DNA from: Candidatus Kapaibacterium sp. | GTDB taxonomy: Bacteria > Bacteroidota > Ignavibacteria > Kapaibacteriales > Kapaibacteriaceae | Length of the DNA stretch: 43,860 bases | Assembly: GCA_030833725.1 (NCBI GenBank) | Contig: JAURGP010000012.1 | Coordinates: 1 to 43,860, forward strand | Direction: 5' to 3' | Part shown: positions 5,182 to 28,876 of the stretch, in pieces | Position numbering within the stretch: the first letter of the stretch is position 1 | How the letters are laid out: each line of letters opens with the position of its first letter | Made by a program: the position numbers and the translations under genes | The notes under the pieces: generated by a model | What the model saw: only the letters and a program-made list of their open reading frames with translations | Database searches by the model: none | Told to the model about the DNA's origin: nothing

Positions 5182-5385
5182 CGAACTGTAACATCATTGA
5201 GGGTTAGTAGTTAGTACGAACGTAACGCAGTGCAGTAGTGTGTAGTTTGCTTCACGTTTTGTGTGAAAACTTTGTTATTATGAATGCCCGTAGTGGCCAT
5301 CAGTCCAGATGGTCGAGCGGCGGCGCTATCAGTACGACAGATCAAATCATTTTACATGTCCGTAGTCCACGTCTGGAGGTTCTTC

Positions 5386-8300
5386 ATGACAGTCCGATAC
5401 ATGCTGCGCTCACTTGCGGTGTTCTTGGTGCTTCTTGCAAGCGTCAGCACGTCCATGGCGCAACGCAAGGTTCCCACAGCGGCAGAGATGCTGAGCGTTA
5501 ACGGCGCTCAGGGTACTGAGTTCTGGATCACCGTTCCACCGAACGAGTTGCTTCCCTTCCCTGTCAACGGTCTCGACGTGTATATCGCCTCGGCCTACGA
5601 CACGGAAGTGACCATCTTCGACGCGGCCGGCAACGACGTCAAGAAGCGGAAGATTACCGCCAACGACATCCGTACGCTCTCCGATGATCGCGGTGAAACG
5701 AACTGGTCATGGGAAGTGCGGGAGTACGAACAGACGGAACGTAAGGCCATTCGCCTAACGGCCGACAAGCCGTTCTCCGTGTACGTCCTGAACTCCAAGG
5801 TGACCACGTCCGACGGCTACCTCGCCATCCCCACGTCTGCTTGGGGCAAAAACTACGTAGCTGTCAGCTACTTCGACTTCCGCGAGTTTTCGCCGTGGGC
5901 AGGGGGCTTTGTGATCGTGGCCAAAGAAAACGGCACGGTGGTGAACATCAACCTGCGCGGCCAAGGTAAGCTGGACGCTCGCACCTCTGGTGGCAAGCGC
6001 ATTGGTGATCGCCTCGAGATCGTCATGAACGAAGGCGAGATCTACGCCATCGTGGGTGACGGACAAACGCGCGGCGTTTTCGACCTTACAGGTACGGAAA
6101 TCCGCGCCAATCAGCCGATCGGTGTGTGGGGCTTCCACCAGCGTACAACGATGCCGAACCTGCTGATTAACGGTAACGGTCGCGACCACCTTGTTGAGAT
6201 GTTGCCGCCACTTGAAACGTGGGGAAAAAAGTACGTCTCGGTAGAGTACAACCGTCAAGGCAGCAATCCGAATGCAAAGGGTGACGTCTTCCGCGTGGTG
6301 TGCTCGCAACCGAACACCAAATGGACGCTGAAGTATTACGACAAAACGTCGAAGGCCCTCATCGGTCAGGGTGGTGGCCTCCTGGCCAATGCCGGCGACT
6401 TCCAGGACTTGTCGCAGGCGCAGGGCCCATCGATTTTGGTCAACGGTTACAGCGTATGGGAGGCCGACAAGCCCATCTTCGTGATGCAATATGCATGCTC
6501 GGCTAGCTTCGACGGCGACCAGGTACACGACCCCTTCATGATCAACGTGGTGCCTGAAGAACAGTTCATCCCGAACACCATATTCCAGACGCCAACCGAC
6601 ACGAAGTTCTATTCGCACAAGTTGAACCTGATCGTGTGGGCCGACGTCAACGACCCTGACTATGTCGACAACCTGAAGTCGCTCACGATCAACGATGTGC
6701 CGATCTGGAACCACCCACAGTCGGCAGCACCAACGCTGCTCTACAACCACATGGGTGACAACCTCCACTGGGTAACGCTGAACTTCGGCACGATTGCTCA
6801 GGCGCGCCGTATGAACGGCAATGGCAAGGTGAAGTTCGGTGGCTACATCTACGGCTACGGCTCGGTAGACTCCTACGGATGGCCGGCAGCTTCGGGCTTC
6901 CGTCCGACGACGTCCTTCGACACCATGCCGCCGGTACTGACGGCTGAAGATCTCTGCGGAGACTTTGCCTACACCGCCACCGAGTTCCGAAACATCCCCG
7001 ACCCACCACGCGACGAGCCCCTTGACAGCGACCAAGTAGAAACAGGTATGGCTCTGATCGACTTTGTCCCGAGCGGTGTGAGCTACAACTACCGCATCGT
7101 GCTGATCACCGACCAGACCATGCCACGCGACCCCTCATTCAAGGAGTTCAAGTTCCGCCTAGAGGTGATTGATAAAAGCAAGGATGCATACGCTGAGTTC
7201 TTTGTGCAGGACTGGGCCGATAACATCACCTACGATACGGTGCAGTACTTCGCTCCGCAGTTGTCGTTCGCACCAAGCCCGTTGAAGTTTGGTGAGATAC
7301 GCCTTGGTACCACCAAGACCATGGACGTGACCGTGCGCAATGAAGGCGACGGTCCGGTTACGCTGAAATCGAATACCTTCAAGACCGGTACGTACTACAG
7401 CATCGTCAACGGATCACTGCCTCCCGAGGTGGTGCTTGAGCCAGCCCAGACACATACCTTCACCATTCAGTACAGCGGCGATCGCGAAACAGCCGACATC
7501 GAGCGTGACTTCGACCTTGATACGCTGACGATTGAAGCCGATTGCGGTGAAGCAGAGTTCGGTATGGAGGGTGTAGCCGGTGTGCCATGTATCGTGGTAG
7601 AGGACTTCAAGGTTGGCACGGTGGGTGCCGGTGAAGAGCGCTGCAAGGCCGGAGGCCTGCGCGTCCGCAACCAGGGCTCAGATACGTTGGTGATTACCAA
7701 CATCACCGGCTTCCTGGGTACCAACTTCACCGTGACGAACTTGACCCCAGCACTGCCGATTCGAGTACTGCCAAAGGCCTCTGTCAACTTGGAAACGATC
7801 TGCTACCAGCGCAACGACGTTGGTACTGATTCCATCGATGTGGTCTTCAGCAGCAATGCCGATGGTCCCTTCTGCCAATCCGACAGCATCTCCGTATGGA
7901 CGGGTGCAACGGAAAGCCCAGGACCTGGCATCATTGGTCACAACTGGCTGCTGCGCCGCGAGAACACGCTCCACCCAGAGTTTGGAGTGGTGAACGTGTA
8001 CAACTCGGGCAACCAAGGCCTGACCGTTCGCGACGTCACGTTTGCCGATGGTAGCAAGTACTTCCCAGCCGGTTCCAACGAAGCGAACTACGTCTTCAAG
8101 CTTGGCCGACTGCTGGACAACGGTGCTCCCGTAACGGACTTTGCCGTATCCAACGGCTCAAGCGTCTTTGTAGAGGCCTGGTTCCGCCCAGCAGACGACG
8201 TAGCCTACTCAGCCACCATCGTTCCGGTGTGGGCCGAGGCTGACGTACCTGCCCGTTCTGCACTGCTGGAGGGTGAAGGTACCTTGCCAACGATCGCTAC

Positions 8301-9774
8301 CCAGGGTGCCGTGCTCACGTGCGCGGATACACCGGAAGCCGTGGCGGTCTCGCGCGATCTGGTGTTCACCAACAACGGTACAGAGGATCTCACGATTACG
8401 AATCTGCGTCTCGCTGCCGGTAGCGATCCGGCATGGGCCTTTGCAGCTCCCGGCCCTGCTGCATCGTTCGTGGTGCCATTCGTTGCCGGTTCGAATGAGG
8501 TGCGCGTACCAGTAGAGTTCACACGACCTACCCTCAACAACAATGCCTTTGCCCTTACCGTGGAGTTTGAACACGACGCTGTACGTGGCAACGGTACCGA
8601 CGCCGTGATTACACCGGTAACAGCTACCGAGAGATTCACGGTGGGCAGCTGCTCCGGCCCAGCCATCGAAGTCACGGACATCGACTTTGGCCGTAACCTG
8701 GCAAGCTGCGACGCACCAATTCTGGAGTTTACGATCACCAATACCGGCGGCGGAGCTACCCCGCTGGAGATTCGTGAAATGCTTCCTGTTGGTGCCGATG
8801 CTGGTGCCTTCAGCATTATTTCGATCAACGACGATGCCGGTCGCGCTCTGACGCTTCCGTTCACGTTGGCTGCCCAGGTCAAGGCGATCGTACGCGTACG
8901 ATTCACGCCAACAGAGCCAGCAGCAGCTCCATGGAACGACCGTGTGTACAACGCCCAGTTCCACATCCTCAACTACGAAGAAGGCCGTGGTGATGAGTTG
9001 CAGCCAGATACGTACGTGAATGTCACAGGCGTCGGCTTTGTGATTCCTGTTTCAGCTAGCCTCACACAGGAGCTGGCTGGTCAGCTGATTGCCCCTTCCG
9101 ACCGGCCAGTGCGGTTCACAGTGAGCGGTCAGTCGGGTAACTGGAACCGTGCGGCGGTGCGTCAGTTCGAGGTTACCATGGTATACAACCCTACGGCCGT
9201 GTACTACAACGCCAACTCGGTAGCTCGTGCAGGCCTTCCAGCCGACTGGACGGTATCGGAACCTGCTATCACGCAAGTATCGCCAACACAGTGGCGCGCT
9301 ACCTTTACAGCAAATGGCACTACACCAATAGCAGCCAATGGCGACCTGTTCACGTTCACGTGCATCGTGCTGCTGGGTGAGGAGTTCAACTCCAAGCAGG
9401 ATTTGGAGCTATCGTTCGACCGGGCATGTCTCATTCCAACTGCACAGGGCACGTCGACGGAAATCACGAACTGTGCCCTCACCAAGCGCGTGATCAGTGC
9501 CGGAACGATCCAGTACACGCTTGACCCCGTGGCTCCAAACCCGGTTTCGACCGGCACGGCCAAGGTCTCCTTCGGTGTTGGCATCAAGGCTCCAACAACG
9601 GTCGAGCTGATTGATGCCCGTGGTCAGGTAGTAGAGCGTCTCGTGGATCAGACACTCGACGAAGGCGAGTACAACCTTGAGTTCCCAACTGCGAAGCTCA
9701 GCAATGGCTTGTACTTCCTCCGCATGACGTCGGCGGACTACACCAGCACTCAGCAGGTGATGGTAGCTCGCTAA
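5386..9774 (+). CDS. very large type IX-secreted surface protein with IgGFc-binding-like N-terminus
   Basis: A 1462-residue secreted protein. Residues 1-26 are a signal peptide ending SVSTSMAQ. Residues about 40-460 resemble the IgGFc-binding N-terminal domain common in Bacteroidota surface proteins (GTEFWITVPPNELLPF early, KYVSVEYNRQGSN later). From about residue 625 there is a series of immunoglobulin-fold modules of the ASH/choice-of-anchor type (FGEIRLGTTKTMDVTVRNEG; DFGRNLASCDAPILEFTITN), then a cohesin-like module near 1220-1350. The last 85 residues are a type A sorting domain (DPVAPNPVSTGTAKVSF to LSNGLYFLRM), so export by the type IX system is expected. The start at 5386 is chosen because GGAGG lies 6 nt upstream and the signal peptide follows; the frame is open from 5284. 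The ligand is unknown. Confidence 0.87.
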   Translation: MTVRYMLRSLAVFLVLLASVSTSMAQRKVPTAAEMLSVNGAQGTEFWITVPPNELLPFPVNGLDVYIASAYDTEVTIFDAAGNDVKKRKITANDIRTLSDDRGETNWSWEVREYEQTERKAIRLTADKPFSVYVLNSKVTTSDGYLAIPTSAWGKNYVAVSYFDFREFSPWAGGFVIVAKENGTVVNINLRGQGKLDARTSGGKRIGDRLEIVMNEGEIYAIVGDGQTRGVFDLTGTEIRANQPIGVWGFHQRTTMPNLLINGNGRDHLVEMLPPLETWGKKYVSVEYNRQGSNPNAKGDVFRVVCSQPNTKWTLKYYDKTSKALIGQGGGLLANAGDFQDLSQAQGPSILVNGYSVWEADKPIFVMQYACSASFDGDQVHDPFMINVVPEEQFIPNTIFQTPTDTKFYSHKLNLIVWADVNDPDYVDNLKSLTINDVPIWNHPQSAAPTLLYNHMGDNLHWVTLNFGTIAQARRMNGNGKVKFGGYIYGYGSVDSYGWPAASGFRPTTSFDTMPPVLTAEDLCGDFAYTATEFRNIPDPPRDEPLDSDQVETGMALIDFVPSGVSYNYRIVLITDQTMPRDPSFKEFKFRLEVIDKSKDAYAEFFVQDWADNITYDTVQYFAPQLSFAPSPLKFGEIRLGTTKTMDVTVRNEGDGPVTLKSNTFKTGTYYSIVNGSLPPEVVLEPAQTHTFTIQYSGDRETADIERDFDLDTLTIEADCGEAEFGMEGVAGVPCIVVEDFKVGTVGAGEERCKAGGLRVRNQGSDTLVITNITGFLGTNFTVTNLTPALPIRVLPKASVNLETICYQRNDVGTDSIDVVFSSNADGPFCQSDSISVWTGATESPGPGIIGHNWLLRRENTLHPEFGVVNVYNSGNQGLTVRDVTFADGSKYFPAGSNEANYVFKLGRLLDNGAPVTDFAVSNGSSVFVEAWFRPADDVAYSATIVPVWAEADVPARSALLEGEGTLPTIATQGAVLTCADTPEAVAVSRDLVFTNNGTEDLTITNLRLAAGSDPAWAFAAPGPAASFVVPFVAGSNEVRVPVEFTRPTLNNNAFALTVEFEHDAVRGNGTDAVITPVTATERFTVGSCSGPAIEVTDIDFGRNLASCDAPILEFTITNTGGGATPLEIREMLPVGADAGAFSIISINDDAGRALTLPFTLAAQVKAIVRVRFTPTEPAAAPWNDRVYNAQFHILNYEEGRGDELQPDTYVNVTGVGFVIPVSASLTQELAGQLIAPSDRPVRFTVSGQSGNWNRAAVRQFEVTMVYNPTAVYYNANSVARAGLPADWTVSEPAITQVSPTQWRATFTANGTTPIAANGDLFTFTCIVLLGEEFNSKQDLELSFDRACLIPTAQGTSTEITNCALTKRVISAGTIQYTLDPVAPNPVSTGTAKVSFGVGIKAPTTVELIDARGQVVERLVDQTLDEGEYNLEFPTAKLSNGLYFLRMTSADYTSTQQVMVAR

Positions 9775-25946: not shown

Positions 25947-26375
25947 ATGCCCTACGATCCCATGCTTGTCCAGCCGATGAAGGAAGAACTCACCAGCCTT
26001 GGTGTGAAAGAACTTCTTACGGCCGAGGACGTCGATACTGCCCTGAGGCAACCAGGTTTGACCCTAGTTGTGGTCAACTCCGTATGTGGTTGTGCTGCCG
26101 GCGGAGCTCGCCCAGGCGTTGCTCTTGCGATGAAACACTCCACCCTGCCTGATCAGGTAGTCACGGTGTTTGCCGGTCAGGATGTTGAAGCTACCGAGCG
26201 TGCCCGCACATACTTCACCGGTCAAGCACCCAGCAGCCCAGCCATGGCCATTCTGCGTGACGGTGAGTTGGTGGCGTTCATGCCACGTCACCACATCGAA
26301 GGACGTTCCCCGGAGCAGATTGCTTCGGCGCTGACCAATGCCTTTGATGCTCTTAGCTCTGCGACGGCGTCGTAA
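25947..26375 (+). CDS. bacilliredoxin (BrxA/BrxB, YphP/YqiW family)
   Basis: A 142-residue thioredoxin-fold protein of the UPF0403/bacilliredoxin family. Seen: MPYDPMLVQPMKEELTSLGV at the start, the active-site segment LVVVNSVCGCAAGGARPGVA with the diagnostic Cys-Gly-Cys, and the C-terminal SPAMAILRDGELVAFMPRHH with EGRSPEQIA. Bacilliredoxins remove bacillithiol from proteins after oxidative stress. The start at 25947 follows TGAGG and matches the family N-terminus; a longer frame to 25761 would lie inside the TPR gene. The 3' end overlaps the convergent metallopeptidase by 23 nt. Confidence 0.93.
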   Translation: MPYDPMLVQPMKEELTSLGVKELLTAEDVDTALRQPGLTLVVVNSVCGCAAGGARPGVALAMKHSTLPDQVVTVFAGQDVEATERARTYFTGQAPSSPAMAILRDGELVAFMPRHHIEGRSPEQIASALTNAFDALSSATAS

Positions 26376-27030
26376 GAACGGACGTCCACTGATCCAGTAG
26401 TCGATTTGCTTCGTCGTAGCCCGGCATGAGGTGCCGTGCCAGGTGCTGAAATGCCGGGCCATGATGCATGTACATAAGGTGTGCCAACTCGTGGGCAATC
26501 ACGGCCTGCCAACACGGGTCGGGTACGCGGATCAGCCAGTCGTTGAGCGTGATCCTACCATCCATGGTGCAGGAGCCCCAGCGGCGACGCATGGTACGAA
26601 GGCGTAGCGATTGGTATCGCAAGGCGGCTACTCCCAATGCCGGCAGCATCTGCCGGATCGTGTCCTCGAACAGCTGTAGCGCTTCAGCACGTTGCCACGA
26701 GCGCAACGCCGACGCCGTCCCACGCCATTCCATCACCGCCCCTCGATGATGGACATGTCGCTCCGTGGGAAGCAAGGGAATGCTCTGCAGGGCGCGATCT
26801 GCATCCAGAATTCGGCGCTCTATCCACCTGCGCTTACTCAGCAGGAACGCTTCAATATCTGCGTGGGAAACGTAGAGGGGACTGCGCACATGAACGGCAC
26901 CATGGGGCTGGATCTCCACGGATAATGTGCGTCGACGACTGCGGTGAAGCGTATACGTTAGCCCCCTACCAGACTCGGGAAAGAGTGGCCAGCATGCCGT
27001 AGATTCCCCCTTCTTCACCGAAACTTTCAC
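26353..27030 (-). CDS. YgjP-like zinc metallopeptidase (M48-related, DUF45)
   Basis: A 225-residue protein of the YgjP/WLM-type metallopeptidase family. Seen: RRRTLSVEIQPHGAVHVRSP near the start, IEAFLLSKRRWIERRI, the family signature RRRWGSCTMDGRITLNDWLI (residues 148-167), and the zinc site HELAHLMYMHHGPAFQHL with H180, E181, H184 and a further His near 190. It is probably cytoplasmic, with no signal peptide; the substrate is not known for the family, though YgjP relatives often sit beside HsdR. The first codon is GTG at 27030. The start lies only 26 nt from the divergent sigma-factor ATG. Confidence 0.87.
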   Translation of the reverse strand: MKVSVKKGESTACWPLFPESGRGLTYTLHRSRRRTLSVEIQPHGAVHVRSPLYVSHADIEAFLLSKRRWIERRILDADRALQSIPLLPTERHVHHRGAVMEWRGTASALRSWQRAEALQLFEDTIRQMLPALGVAALRYQSLRLRTMRRRWGSCTMDGRITLNDWLIRVPDPCWQAVIAHELAHLMYMHHGPAFQHLARHLMPGYDEANRLLDQWTSVLTTPSQS

Positions 27031-27056
27031 CCTTGTAGTCTGTTGGTACTCCCTGC

Positions 27057-27617
27057 ATGGAGCGATTGCTCAGCGAATATACCGACACGGAGCTGTACGA
27101 GTGCCTCAGTACAGCTGATGCCGATGTGGCGTTCTCCGAGCTATACGCTCGGTATTCGTCCGTGGTGTATGCCTACTGCGTCCGAGTGATGGGTGATCGC
27201 GACAAGGCAGCGGACGTGTTTCAGGATACCTTCATACGGTTCTACCAGAGTGCCCAGCGGCATCAAAGCATGGAGAACGTCAAGGGATACCTCCTCACGA
27301 TTAGTCGCAACCTGTGCCTGAACGAAAAGAAGCGCGCCTCGTCGAACAACCTGGAGTTCGATGAACTCCTGTACAATCCAGGTGAGTCGCGCGAGCACGA
27401 GCGCAATGAGATGATGGACCTGATTGCCCGTGCCTTGGAGCTTCTGCCGCAGGACATGCGCGAGGCCTTTGTACTGCGCGAGTACCAGGGCTTATCGTAC
27501 AAGGAAATGACCGTTATTCTCGATATCAAACTCGAAACAGCCAAGGTGCGTGTGTTCCGGGCACGGCAGCGCATCAAGGAAATCTTGCAACCCTATCTCG
27601 ATGACATGCAACGGTAG
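27057..27617 (+). CDS. ECF-type RNA polymerase sigma factor
   Basis: A 186-residue sigma-70 family protein of the extracytoplasmic-function type. Region 2 is at about residues 25-90 (FSELYARYSSVVYAYCVRVM, then KAADVFQDTFIRFYQSAQ, which matches the -10 recognition helix region). Region 4 is at 120-180 (ARALELLPQDMREAFVLREY, then LSYKEMTVILDIKLETAKVR with the helix-turn-helix). The next gene, 35 nt downstream, encodes an anti-sigma-like membrane protein, the usual arrangement for ECF regulation. Targets probably include its own operon, but no promoter for it can be identified. A divergent metallopeptidase starts 26 nt upstream. Confidence 0.93.
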   Translation: MERLLSEYTDTELYECLSTADADVAFSELYARYSSVVYAYCVRVMGDRDKAADVFQDTFIRFYQSAQRHQSMENVKGYLLTISRNLCLNEKKRASSNNLEFDELLYNPGESREHERNEMMDLIARALELLPQDMREAFVLREYQGLSYKEMTVILDIKLETAKVRVFRARQRIKEILQPYLDDMQR

Positions 27618-27652
27618 GGTGATGTGTAGGTTGCTTGAGAAAGTGATGATGT

Positions 27653-28876
27653 ATGCAACAGTTCAGTGAACATATCGACCAACTCCTCGATGGCGAGCTC
27701 GATCCGATGCTCGAGCAGGCGCTGTATGCGGAGTTGGCAACAAATGCCGACCTGCGCACGGAAATGCGCGATCAGATCGCACTCAAAGCAGCTGTCAAGG
27801 ACGACCGCATGGCCTTGGTTCCCCCAGCTGCATTGACGTCGTCGGTGTTTTCTACGCTGGGTCTGGCTACCGGAATGGCCACGGCTGGTGCTGTGGGTGG
27901 TAGCGTGGCTTGGCAGTGGCTCACGCGATTGGGCTTGCCCGTGCTGTCGGCACTCACGGCTGCCGGAGTGAGTTGGTCGGTGTCGCAGAATGCCTTCACG
28001 AAGTTCGTTGCCGAGACTGGAGCCCAAGTTGAGACTCCGGCGGAGCAGCAGACTCCGGCGGAGCAGCAGACTCCGGATCTGGCTCCTGATCAGACTCCAG
28101 ATCTGGCCTCTCAAGTCGTCACACTGCGCCAGGAGAATCAGTCTCTGCGGCAGGAGTTAGCGGCTCGTCCAGAACGTGAAGTTGTGCGGGAGGTCGTGCG
28201 AGAGGTTGTGCGCGTCGTACAACCGGAGGTCGCGCCGGAGGTAGAGCCGGAAGCAGAAACGGAGCCCGAACCAATCACGCTCGCCGTAGGTACATCCAAC
28301 ATCGACATCGTCAACAGCATAGAACTGCAGCGCGATCCCACGCCACAAACGATTCGACTGGCAACGGCTGACCTCGCTCTGCGTCCGCCAGCGCGAAGAC
28401 CATTTGCCGCTCAGGTTCGGGGCATGTCGTTGACGCCCTCTCTGAGTACGGCTGTGTCGGAGCAAAGCGCCTGGTACAACAACCTGGGTCTGGCCGTGAT
28501 GTATTCGATGAACGAGCGAAGTGCTCTTGGGTTTGAAGTTGGAAACGAGGCCTATCCGATGATCTTCGAGGGTGATCGCAACGGACAGGTGGTTCGCTAC
28601 GAGCAGTATCCGTCCACAGTTTGGGCTGGTATTACCTATCGCTTCACGGGTTCCGTCCTCGGGGCGCTTCCCCTGCAGCCCTATGGGCAGGTGCTTGTAG
28701 GGGGCTCAAAGTTTGGTCCTATGGGTCGTATGCAGGCAGGCCTGCAGTATGCACCGGCCGGTCCTCTTGTGTTTTTGCTGGGTGTTGAGGGCTCCGCAAT
28801 GACGTTCACATACCAGAACGCCTGGTATGTCTCTCCAAAATTTGGCCTTACCTACGGTATGGCCCTTCGATTCTGA
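27653..28876 (+). CDS. putative transmembrane anti-sigma factor fused to an outer-membrane-type beta-barrel
   Basis: A 407-residue protein of unusual architecture. Residues 1-55 resemble the cytoplasmic part of an anti-sigma factor (SEHIDQLLDGELDPMLEQAL, TNADLRTEMRDQIALKAAV). Residues 64-110 are hydrophobic, with one or two membrane helices (STLGLATGMATAGAVGGSVA; GLPVLSALTAAGVSWSV). Residues 125-150 are a Gln/Thr/Pro repeat. Residues 150-190 form a coiled coil (QVVTLRQENQSLRQELA, then repeated REVV). Residues 190-208 are Pro/Glu-rich. Residues 250-407 look like an OmpX/OmpA-size barrel: alternating strands such as TVWAGITYRFTGSVLG and LQPYGQVLVGGSKFG, ending with Phe (GLTYGMALRF). It follows the ECF sigma gene by 35 nt. 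If two helices cross the membrane, the barrel could not be periplasmic, so topology needs testing. Confidence 0.75.
   Translation: MQQFSEHIDQLLDGELDPMLEQALYAELATNADLRTEMRDQIALKAAVKDDRMALVPPAALTSSVFSTLGLATGMATAGAVGGSVAWQWLTRLGLPVLSALTAAGVSWSVSQNAFTKFVAETGAQVETPAEQQTPAEQQTPDLAPDQTPDLASQVVTLRQENQSLRQELAARPEREVVREVVREVVRVVQPEVAPEVEPEAETEPEPITLAVGTSNIDIVNSIELQRDPTPQTIRLATADLALRPPARRPFAAQVRGMSLTPSLSTAVSEQSAWYNNLGLAVMYSMNERSALGFEVGNEAYPMIFEGDRNGQVVRYEQYPSTVWAGITYRFTGSVLGALPLQPYGQVLVGGSKFGPMGRMQAGLQYAPAGPLVFLLGVEGSAMTFTYQNAWYVSPKFGLTYGMALRF
28034..28069 (+). repeat. two tandem 18-bp repeats
   Basis: ACTCCGGCGGAGCAGCAG occurs twice in direct tandem (28034-28051, 28052-28069), followed by a partial third copy ACTCCGG and two related ACTCC[AG]GATCTGGC units. 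It codes the Thr-Pro-Ala-Glu-Gln-Gln repeat in the linker of the anti-sigma/barrel protein. Repeat number may vary between strains and change linker length. Confidence 0.85.

Follow-up and report, generated by a model that had tools for sequence, protein, structure and literature searches.

The locus lies in a window of 43,860 nucleotides, the whole stretch of DNA analysed here, which is contig 3 of a Candidatus Kapaibacterium genome of 1.98 Mb and 98% completeness; Kapaibacterium is placed in the Bacteroidota by NCBI. Three genes follow one another on the forward strand: an ECF sigma factor, a single frame of 407 codons that putatively encodes a trans-envelope anti-sigma factor, and a lipoprotein whose gene begins 5 nt past the end of that frame (Table 1). 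Pfam regions 2 and 4 of the sigma factor are both matched far above the cut-offs, and a scan of viral contigs with the sigma factor returned no relative. A sequence-only reading of the locus had placed the sigma gene, a gap of 35 nt and the 407-codon frame, and its coordinates, frame and lengths proved exact. Upstream, a gene for a YgjP-like metallopeptidase (26353-27030, minus strand) diverges from the sigma gene at a distance of 26 nt, with its called start overlapped by the sigma promoter. The same genome carries a second, diverged operon of sigma, trans-envelope anti-sigma and lipoprotein on contig 53 (L004:5245-7680, minus strand).

Table 1. Features of the sigma/anti-sigma/lipoprotein locus, in window coordinates.
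Feature	Position	Strand	Basis
Promoter-like site GAAACTTTC-N13-GTTG, degenerate copy of family GTAAC-N17-GTTA	27020..27045	+	Aligned with orthologues' site
ECF sigma factor, 186 aa	27057..27617	+	Sigma70_r2 E 6e-14, Sigma70_r4_2 E 1.7e-13
Putative trans-envelope anti-sigma factor, 407 aa, single frame	27653..28876	+	Full-length conservation in relatives; model
Predicted zinc-less class I anti-sigma domain, residues 1-69	27653..27859	+	Profile to RsiW, DdvA, RseA; helices pLDDT ~90
Predicted transmembrane segment, residues 93-111	27929..27985	+	Common to family; within model helix 84-122
Predicted periplasmic tether, residues 123-250, Pro/Glu-rich, coiled-coil helices 151-187	28019..28402	+	Model; composition
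18-bp tandem repeat in tether, 2.5 copies, 100% match	28032..28076	+	Sequence
Predicted outer-membrane-type 8-stranded beta-barrel, residues 251-407, C-terminal beta-signal	28403..28873	+	Model, fold matches, beta-signal
Lipoprotein, third operon gene, 189 aa	28882..29451	+	Lipobox GVTAC; lipoprotein after anti-sigma gene in 40/42 loci

The second gene product gave no family match in Pfam or NCBIfam on its own, nor did its N-terminus alone in Pfam, and searching the PDB with the whole protein or the family returned only coiled-coil noise. An AlphaFold model built with 28 homologues folds the N-terminus into four helices (2-12, 18-30, 32-55 and 59-68). A profile of this part, extended with intermediates, reaches RsiW (E 3.6e-6), DdvA (5.8e-4) and RseA (0.004), which bears out the earlier suggestion of an anti-sigma-like N-terminus. 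Members of the family match zf-HC2 and RseA_N weakly, and one short homologue (from L092) matches zf-HC2 above the cut-off. Since residues 1-72 contain no Cys, the zinc ligands HxxxCxxC of the ZAS/zf-HC2 type are absent, and by its profile the N-terminus is an anti-sigma-like domain of the zinc-less class I kind. In another short anti-sigma-like protein (L095), the C-terminus matches AMPK1_CBM/CBM48, so that an anti-sigma factor may there be joined to a possible sugar-binding sensor.

Beyond this domain, the model continues with a helix (84-122), a low-confidence stretch (123-150), helices at 151-187 and disorder up to about residue 248, giving a long and largely disordered tether. Model and composition thereby agree with the coiled coil and Pro/Glu linker that had been read from the sequence. 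The 18-bp repeat noted there does exist, as a feature of this one Kapaibacterium genome that recurs in no other family member. The accompanying idea that it tunes the reach of the tether was rejected: its position is all that speaks for it, and tether length ranges from 108 to 186 residues across the family without the repeat elsewhere. From residue 251 to the terminal Phe, the model forms a barrel at pLDDT ~95 whose best fold matches are OprF, NspA, PagL and OmpA (Z 14-15), with Ail and OmpA returned by Foldseek. The beta-signal G-x-x-h-x-(F/L/Y) closes 38 of 44 members compared with 1.1% of shuffled sequences; of the six exceptions, five have Arg as their last residue and one is truncated at the edge of its contig. 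As such, the barrel-like C-terminus of the earlier reading is now modelled as an outer-membrane barrel of the OmpA/OprF/NspA type.

The sequence-only reading had proposed to ask whether the fusion is conserved, and it is: of 60 relatives from the Kapaibacterium lineage of the Bacteroidota, 59 carry a homologue, and the best match of most is one frame of about 385-445 aa that aligns along the query, so that nearly all relatives carry a full-length version. The labels of the named relatives read Candidatus Kapaibacterium or "Ignavibacteria bacterium" in most cases and are different or uninformative in a few. Full-length homologues in one frame, residues that are invariant in both the N- and the C-terminal part, and the shared beta-signal together amount to more than chance. 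In all 44 distinct copies checked, the sigma gene lies directly upstream of the anti-sigma gene. A profile search that scored the four best candidates of each genome recovered full-length matches across the whole order. Matches from other classes are mostly limited to the N-terminus, in proteins of 150-245 aa, and the short homologues examined there have no barrel. In a few genomes of the same class, a sigma gene is accompanied by a long protein (442-599 aa) whose match lies mostly in the N-terminus and whose C-terminus, judging from the sequence, may be a diverged barrel. One genome of 7.9 Mb (G037) holds 31 matches to the anti-sigma family, a large expansion.

The third gene is a regular companion of the pair: an automatic scan found a lipoprotein after the anti-sigma gene in 32 of 42 loci, and reading added eight more. 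In the closest group, the lipid Cys is followed by xSPLD(S/T)D(A/T)PR with small variations. The best matches of the predicted fold reach only about Z 8, with no clear known relative, and the protein is therefore described as a beta-rich globular domain. Its role may be that of a partner in sensing or of an output of the system.

Upstream of the sigma gene, the family shares a promoter-like motif. GTAAC occurs in 32 of 44 distinct upstream regions (6.5 expected) and GTAAC-N15-20-GTTA in 17 (0.12 expected), although some of these regions come from close relatives, so the counts overstate independence. Fifteen of the 17 sites have a spacing of exactly 17, and most lie about 36 nt before the start codon. 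The window's own site aligns with that of its orthologues, about 37 nt before the start codon; with three mismatches to a stricter version of the pattern, it is by itself not significant. Across 20 family genomes, the stricter pattern yields 27 sites versus 8 for a reversed control. Eleven of the 27 are the operon itself. Of the remaining 16, the majority stand before large secreted proteins, and six before proteins with a type IX tail (E < 0.002), an enrichment of P ~5e-5, or 3e-6 with related sites merged, against a background of about 4.5% of genes that derives from 109 matches in one genome and an estimated gene number of 2,400. None of the 8 control sites stands before a protein recognisable on inspection as type IX cargo, although the 280-aa protein behind one of them may carry a signal peptide. 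The presence of the promoter before the operon and before type IX-secreted proteins points to autoregulation and to a regulon of type IX-secreted surface proteins in relatives. In the window's own genome, a scan with the exact pattern gave no match, and within the window a scan allowing three mismatches stayed at chance (14 sites, 12.6 expected), so no regulon is assigned there.

In relatives, promoter-like GTAAC-N17-GTTA sites stand before large secreted proteins, several of them with type IX sorting tails, at L151, L153-L159 and L143, a candidate regulon. At another locus, L152 in G004, several very large type IX proteins that are related to one another stand in a row, and one of them is apparently interrupted after 734 residues, with its tail in a separate frame. 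At 5188-5213 of the window, GTAAC-N17-GTTA lies about 70 nt before an ORF of 1496 aa (5284-9774) with a type IX tail, possibly by chance.

Taken together, the trans-envelope anti-sigma factor, the sigma factor and the lipoprotein probably form one operon that links the outer membrane to gene expression. On the computed gene order, conservation, domain types and promoter, and because of this anatomy and the analogy with Reo and Dma, a mechanism can be proposed that covers sigma binding, topology, release, signal and regulon. The zinc-less class I domain would hold the ECF sigma factor in the cytoplasm, one helix would cross the inner membrane, and the tether, some 130-140 residues with its coiled coil, would span the periplasm. 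The 8-stranded barrel would sit in the outer membrane and report its state, which the tether would relay across the periplasm. The trigger might be an unassembled barrel, a disturbed barrel or lipoprotein, an altered membrane spacing or a ligand. Speculatively, a barrel that itself needs assembly could signal when this assembly fails. Release of sigma would probably proceed via proteolysis of the tether or the membrane helix, and the freed sigma factor would transcribe its own operon and, in relatives, genes for large type IX-secreted surface proteins.

The sequence-only reading had regarded such a polypeptide as a design not known to be described. This has to be withdrawn, since the same domain order is shared by Reo (PMC9308784, PMC13114119), an anti-sigma factor reaching from the cytoplasm to an outer-membrane barrel, and by the "dual membrane-spanning anti-sigma" (Dma) family, a class found solely among Bacteroidota (PMC13088901). 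In Bacteroides, this order works likewise (PMC13088901, PMC9308784). In Bacteroides thetaiotaomicron, Dma1 and Dma2 go with Das1 and Das2, and the dma2 operon, which is autoregulated, consists of sigma, anti-sigma and a DUF4943 protein (PMC13088901). EcfO-Reo, of Bacteroides fragilis and Phocaeicola vulgatus, is proposed to sense outer-membrane stress (PMC9308784, PMC13114119). Dma proteins resemble the one described here in the adjacent ECF sigma gene, the anti-sigma domain, the single transmembrane helix, the disordered tether and the C-terminal barrel. Membership in the Dma family by descent would call for homology to the Bacteroidia Dma proteins along the chain, an adjacent sigma factor of group ECF21 and an anti-sigma factor that represses its own sigma, with deletion inducing the operon. 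Dma1 is reportedly the subject of Pardue et al. 2024 in PNAS, as cited in PMC13088901. The Dma systems differ in having another kind of anti-sigma domain, DUF4943 rather than this lipoprotein as third gene, and another lineage; the probable type IX regulon is a further feature of the system described here. Reo is likewise predicted to run from the cytoplasm to a barrel at the surface, and its regulon includes nigD lipoproteins; the comparison here used related Bacteroidia proteins, not Reo itself. RsiW, RseA and the zf-HC2 class I factors have the same kind of anti-sigma domain but are single-membrane proteins without a barrel, and the window copy lacks the zinc ligands. FecI/FecR also passes an outer-membrane event to an ECF sigma factor but uses a separate TonB-dependent receptor. 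A FecR-type reading was rejected, as there is no match to the FecR domain and no TonB-dependent receptor gene in the operon; the genes downstream encode the lipoprotein and a type IX cargo protein. The architecture is already known, and the lineage, the parts and the probable regulon are new.

Two alternatives concern the function of the protein itself. The pairing could mean that the sigma factor co-expresses an outer-membrane protein whose N-terminus has no control over it, and the profile of the fused proteins alone indeed matches known anti-sigma factors weakly (E ~0.2). This is most improbable, because even that search places RsiW at the top of the PDB ranking and RseA next, the sigma pairing holds in 44 of 44 copies across divergent paralogues, and short homologues with the same N-terminus adjoin sigma genes as ordinary anti-sigma factors. 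It is also unlikely that the protein fails to bridge the envelope, either by crossing the inner membrane twice or because its barrel is a soluble, ligand-binding periplasmic domain. A second hydrophobic candidate (64-83) is present in the window copy, whose hydropathy is below that of most relatives, and in most close relatives, and soluble avidin-type barrels are among the fold matches (Z ~11). Yet this second candidate coincides with the fourth anti-sigma helix and an Ala/Gly linker, and by hydropathy it was not found in L027, L032, L062, L068 and L069, leaving some members with a single candidate. The hydrophobic helix at about 93-111 is common to all 43 members in the same analysis, in most cases directly preceded by a basic residue. 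One universal helix, together with members that lack the second candidate, makes a single passage with the N-terminus inside and the barrel outside the reading that fits, and largely resolves the earlier doubt about two helices between 64 and 110. Outer-membrane barrels, furthermore, score clearly above soluble ones, hydrophobic residues alternate in the strands, and the beta-signal is conserved.

The other alternative concerns descent: did the bridging architecture arise here anew, or is this protein a member of the Bacteroides Dma/Reo family, diverged beyond detection, with nothing assembled twice? The latter is a serious if somewhat doubtful possibility. Domain order and gene order are identical within one phylum, the barrel profile finds Bacteroidia barrels marginally (E 0.003, probability 11%, above a reversed control), and homology could be missed by alignments as shallow as these. 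Bacteroidia proteins of the dual-membrane type were recovered via the DUF4943 neighbour of Dma2, and the dma2 operon order was found in two Bacteroides-like genomes. Against common descent, the Kapaibacterium-type and Bacteroidia proteins show no pairwise match, and their anti-sigma domains no profile match in the shallow alignments; RsiW and RseA are reached from the Kapaibacterium type alone. An unrooted tree of a limited sample of sigma factors has a 100/98 branch that splits off all those from Bacteroidia and leaves those of the Kapaibacterium type on the side of the sigma factors of barrel-less anti-sigma factors. Given the missing anti-sigma match, the marginal barrel match and the sigma split, a common fused ancestor with Dma and Reo could not be demonstrated. 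With about equal weight for and against, the trans-envelope design may thus have arisen at least twice in the Bacteroidota, once in Dma/Reo and once in Kapaibacterium from a class I RsiW/RseA-like domain with another sigma group, here as a three-gene lipoprotein switch over type IX surface proteins. A 547-aa Bacteroidia protein among those recovered (L117:352-1995) resembles the described Dma3 in having its sigma factor fused to a helix, a tether and a barrel.

If the bridging reading is correct, connecting the outer membrane to RNA polymerase through a single protein would be a recurrent solution and not something peculiar to Bacteroides of the gut: nearly every member of one environmental lineage would use it, some in expanded numbers. 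If two unrelated anti-sigma domains were joined to barrels in the same way, this would speak for selection of the physical link as such. The lipoprotein and the promoter, both of them conserved, provide testable handles on the signals that such systems sense and the genes that they control.
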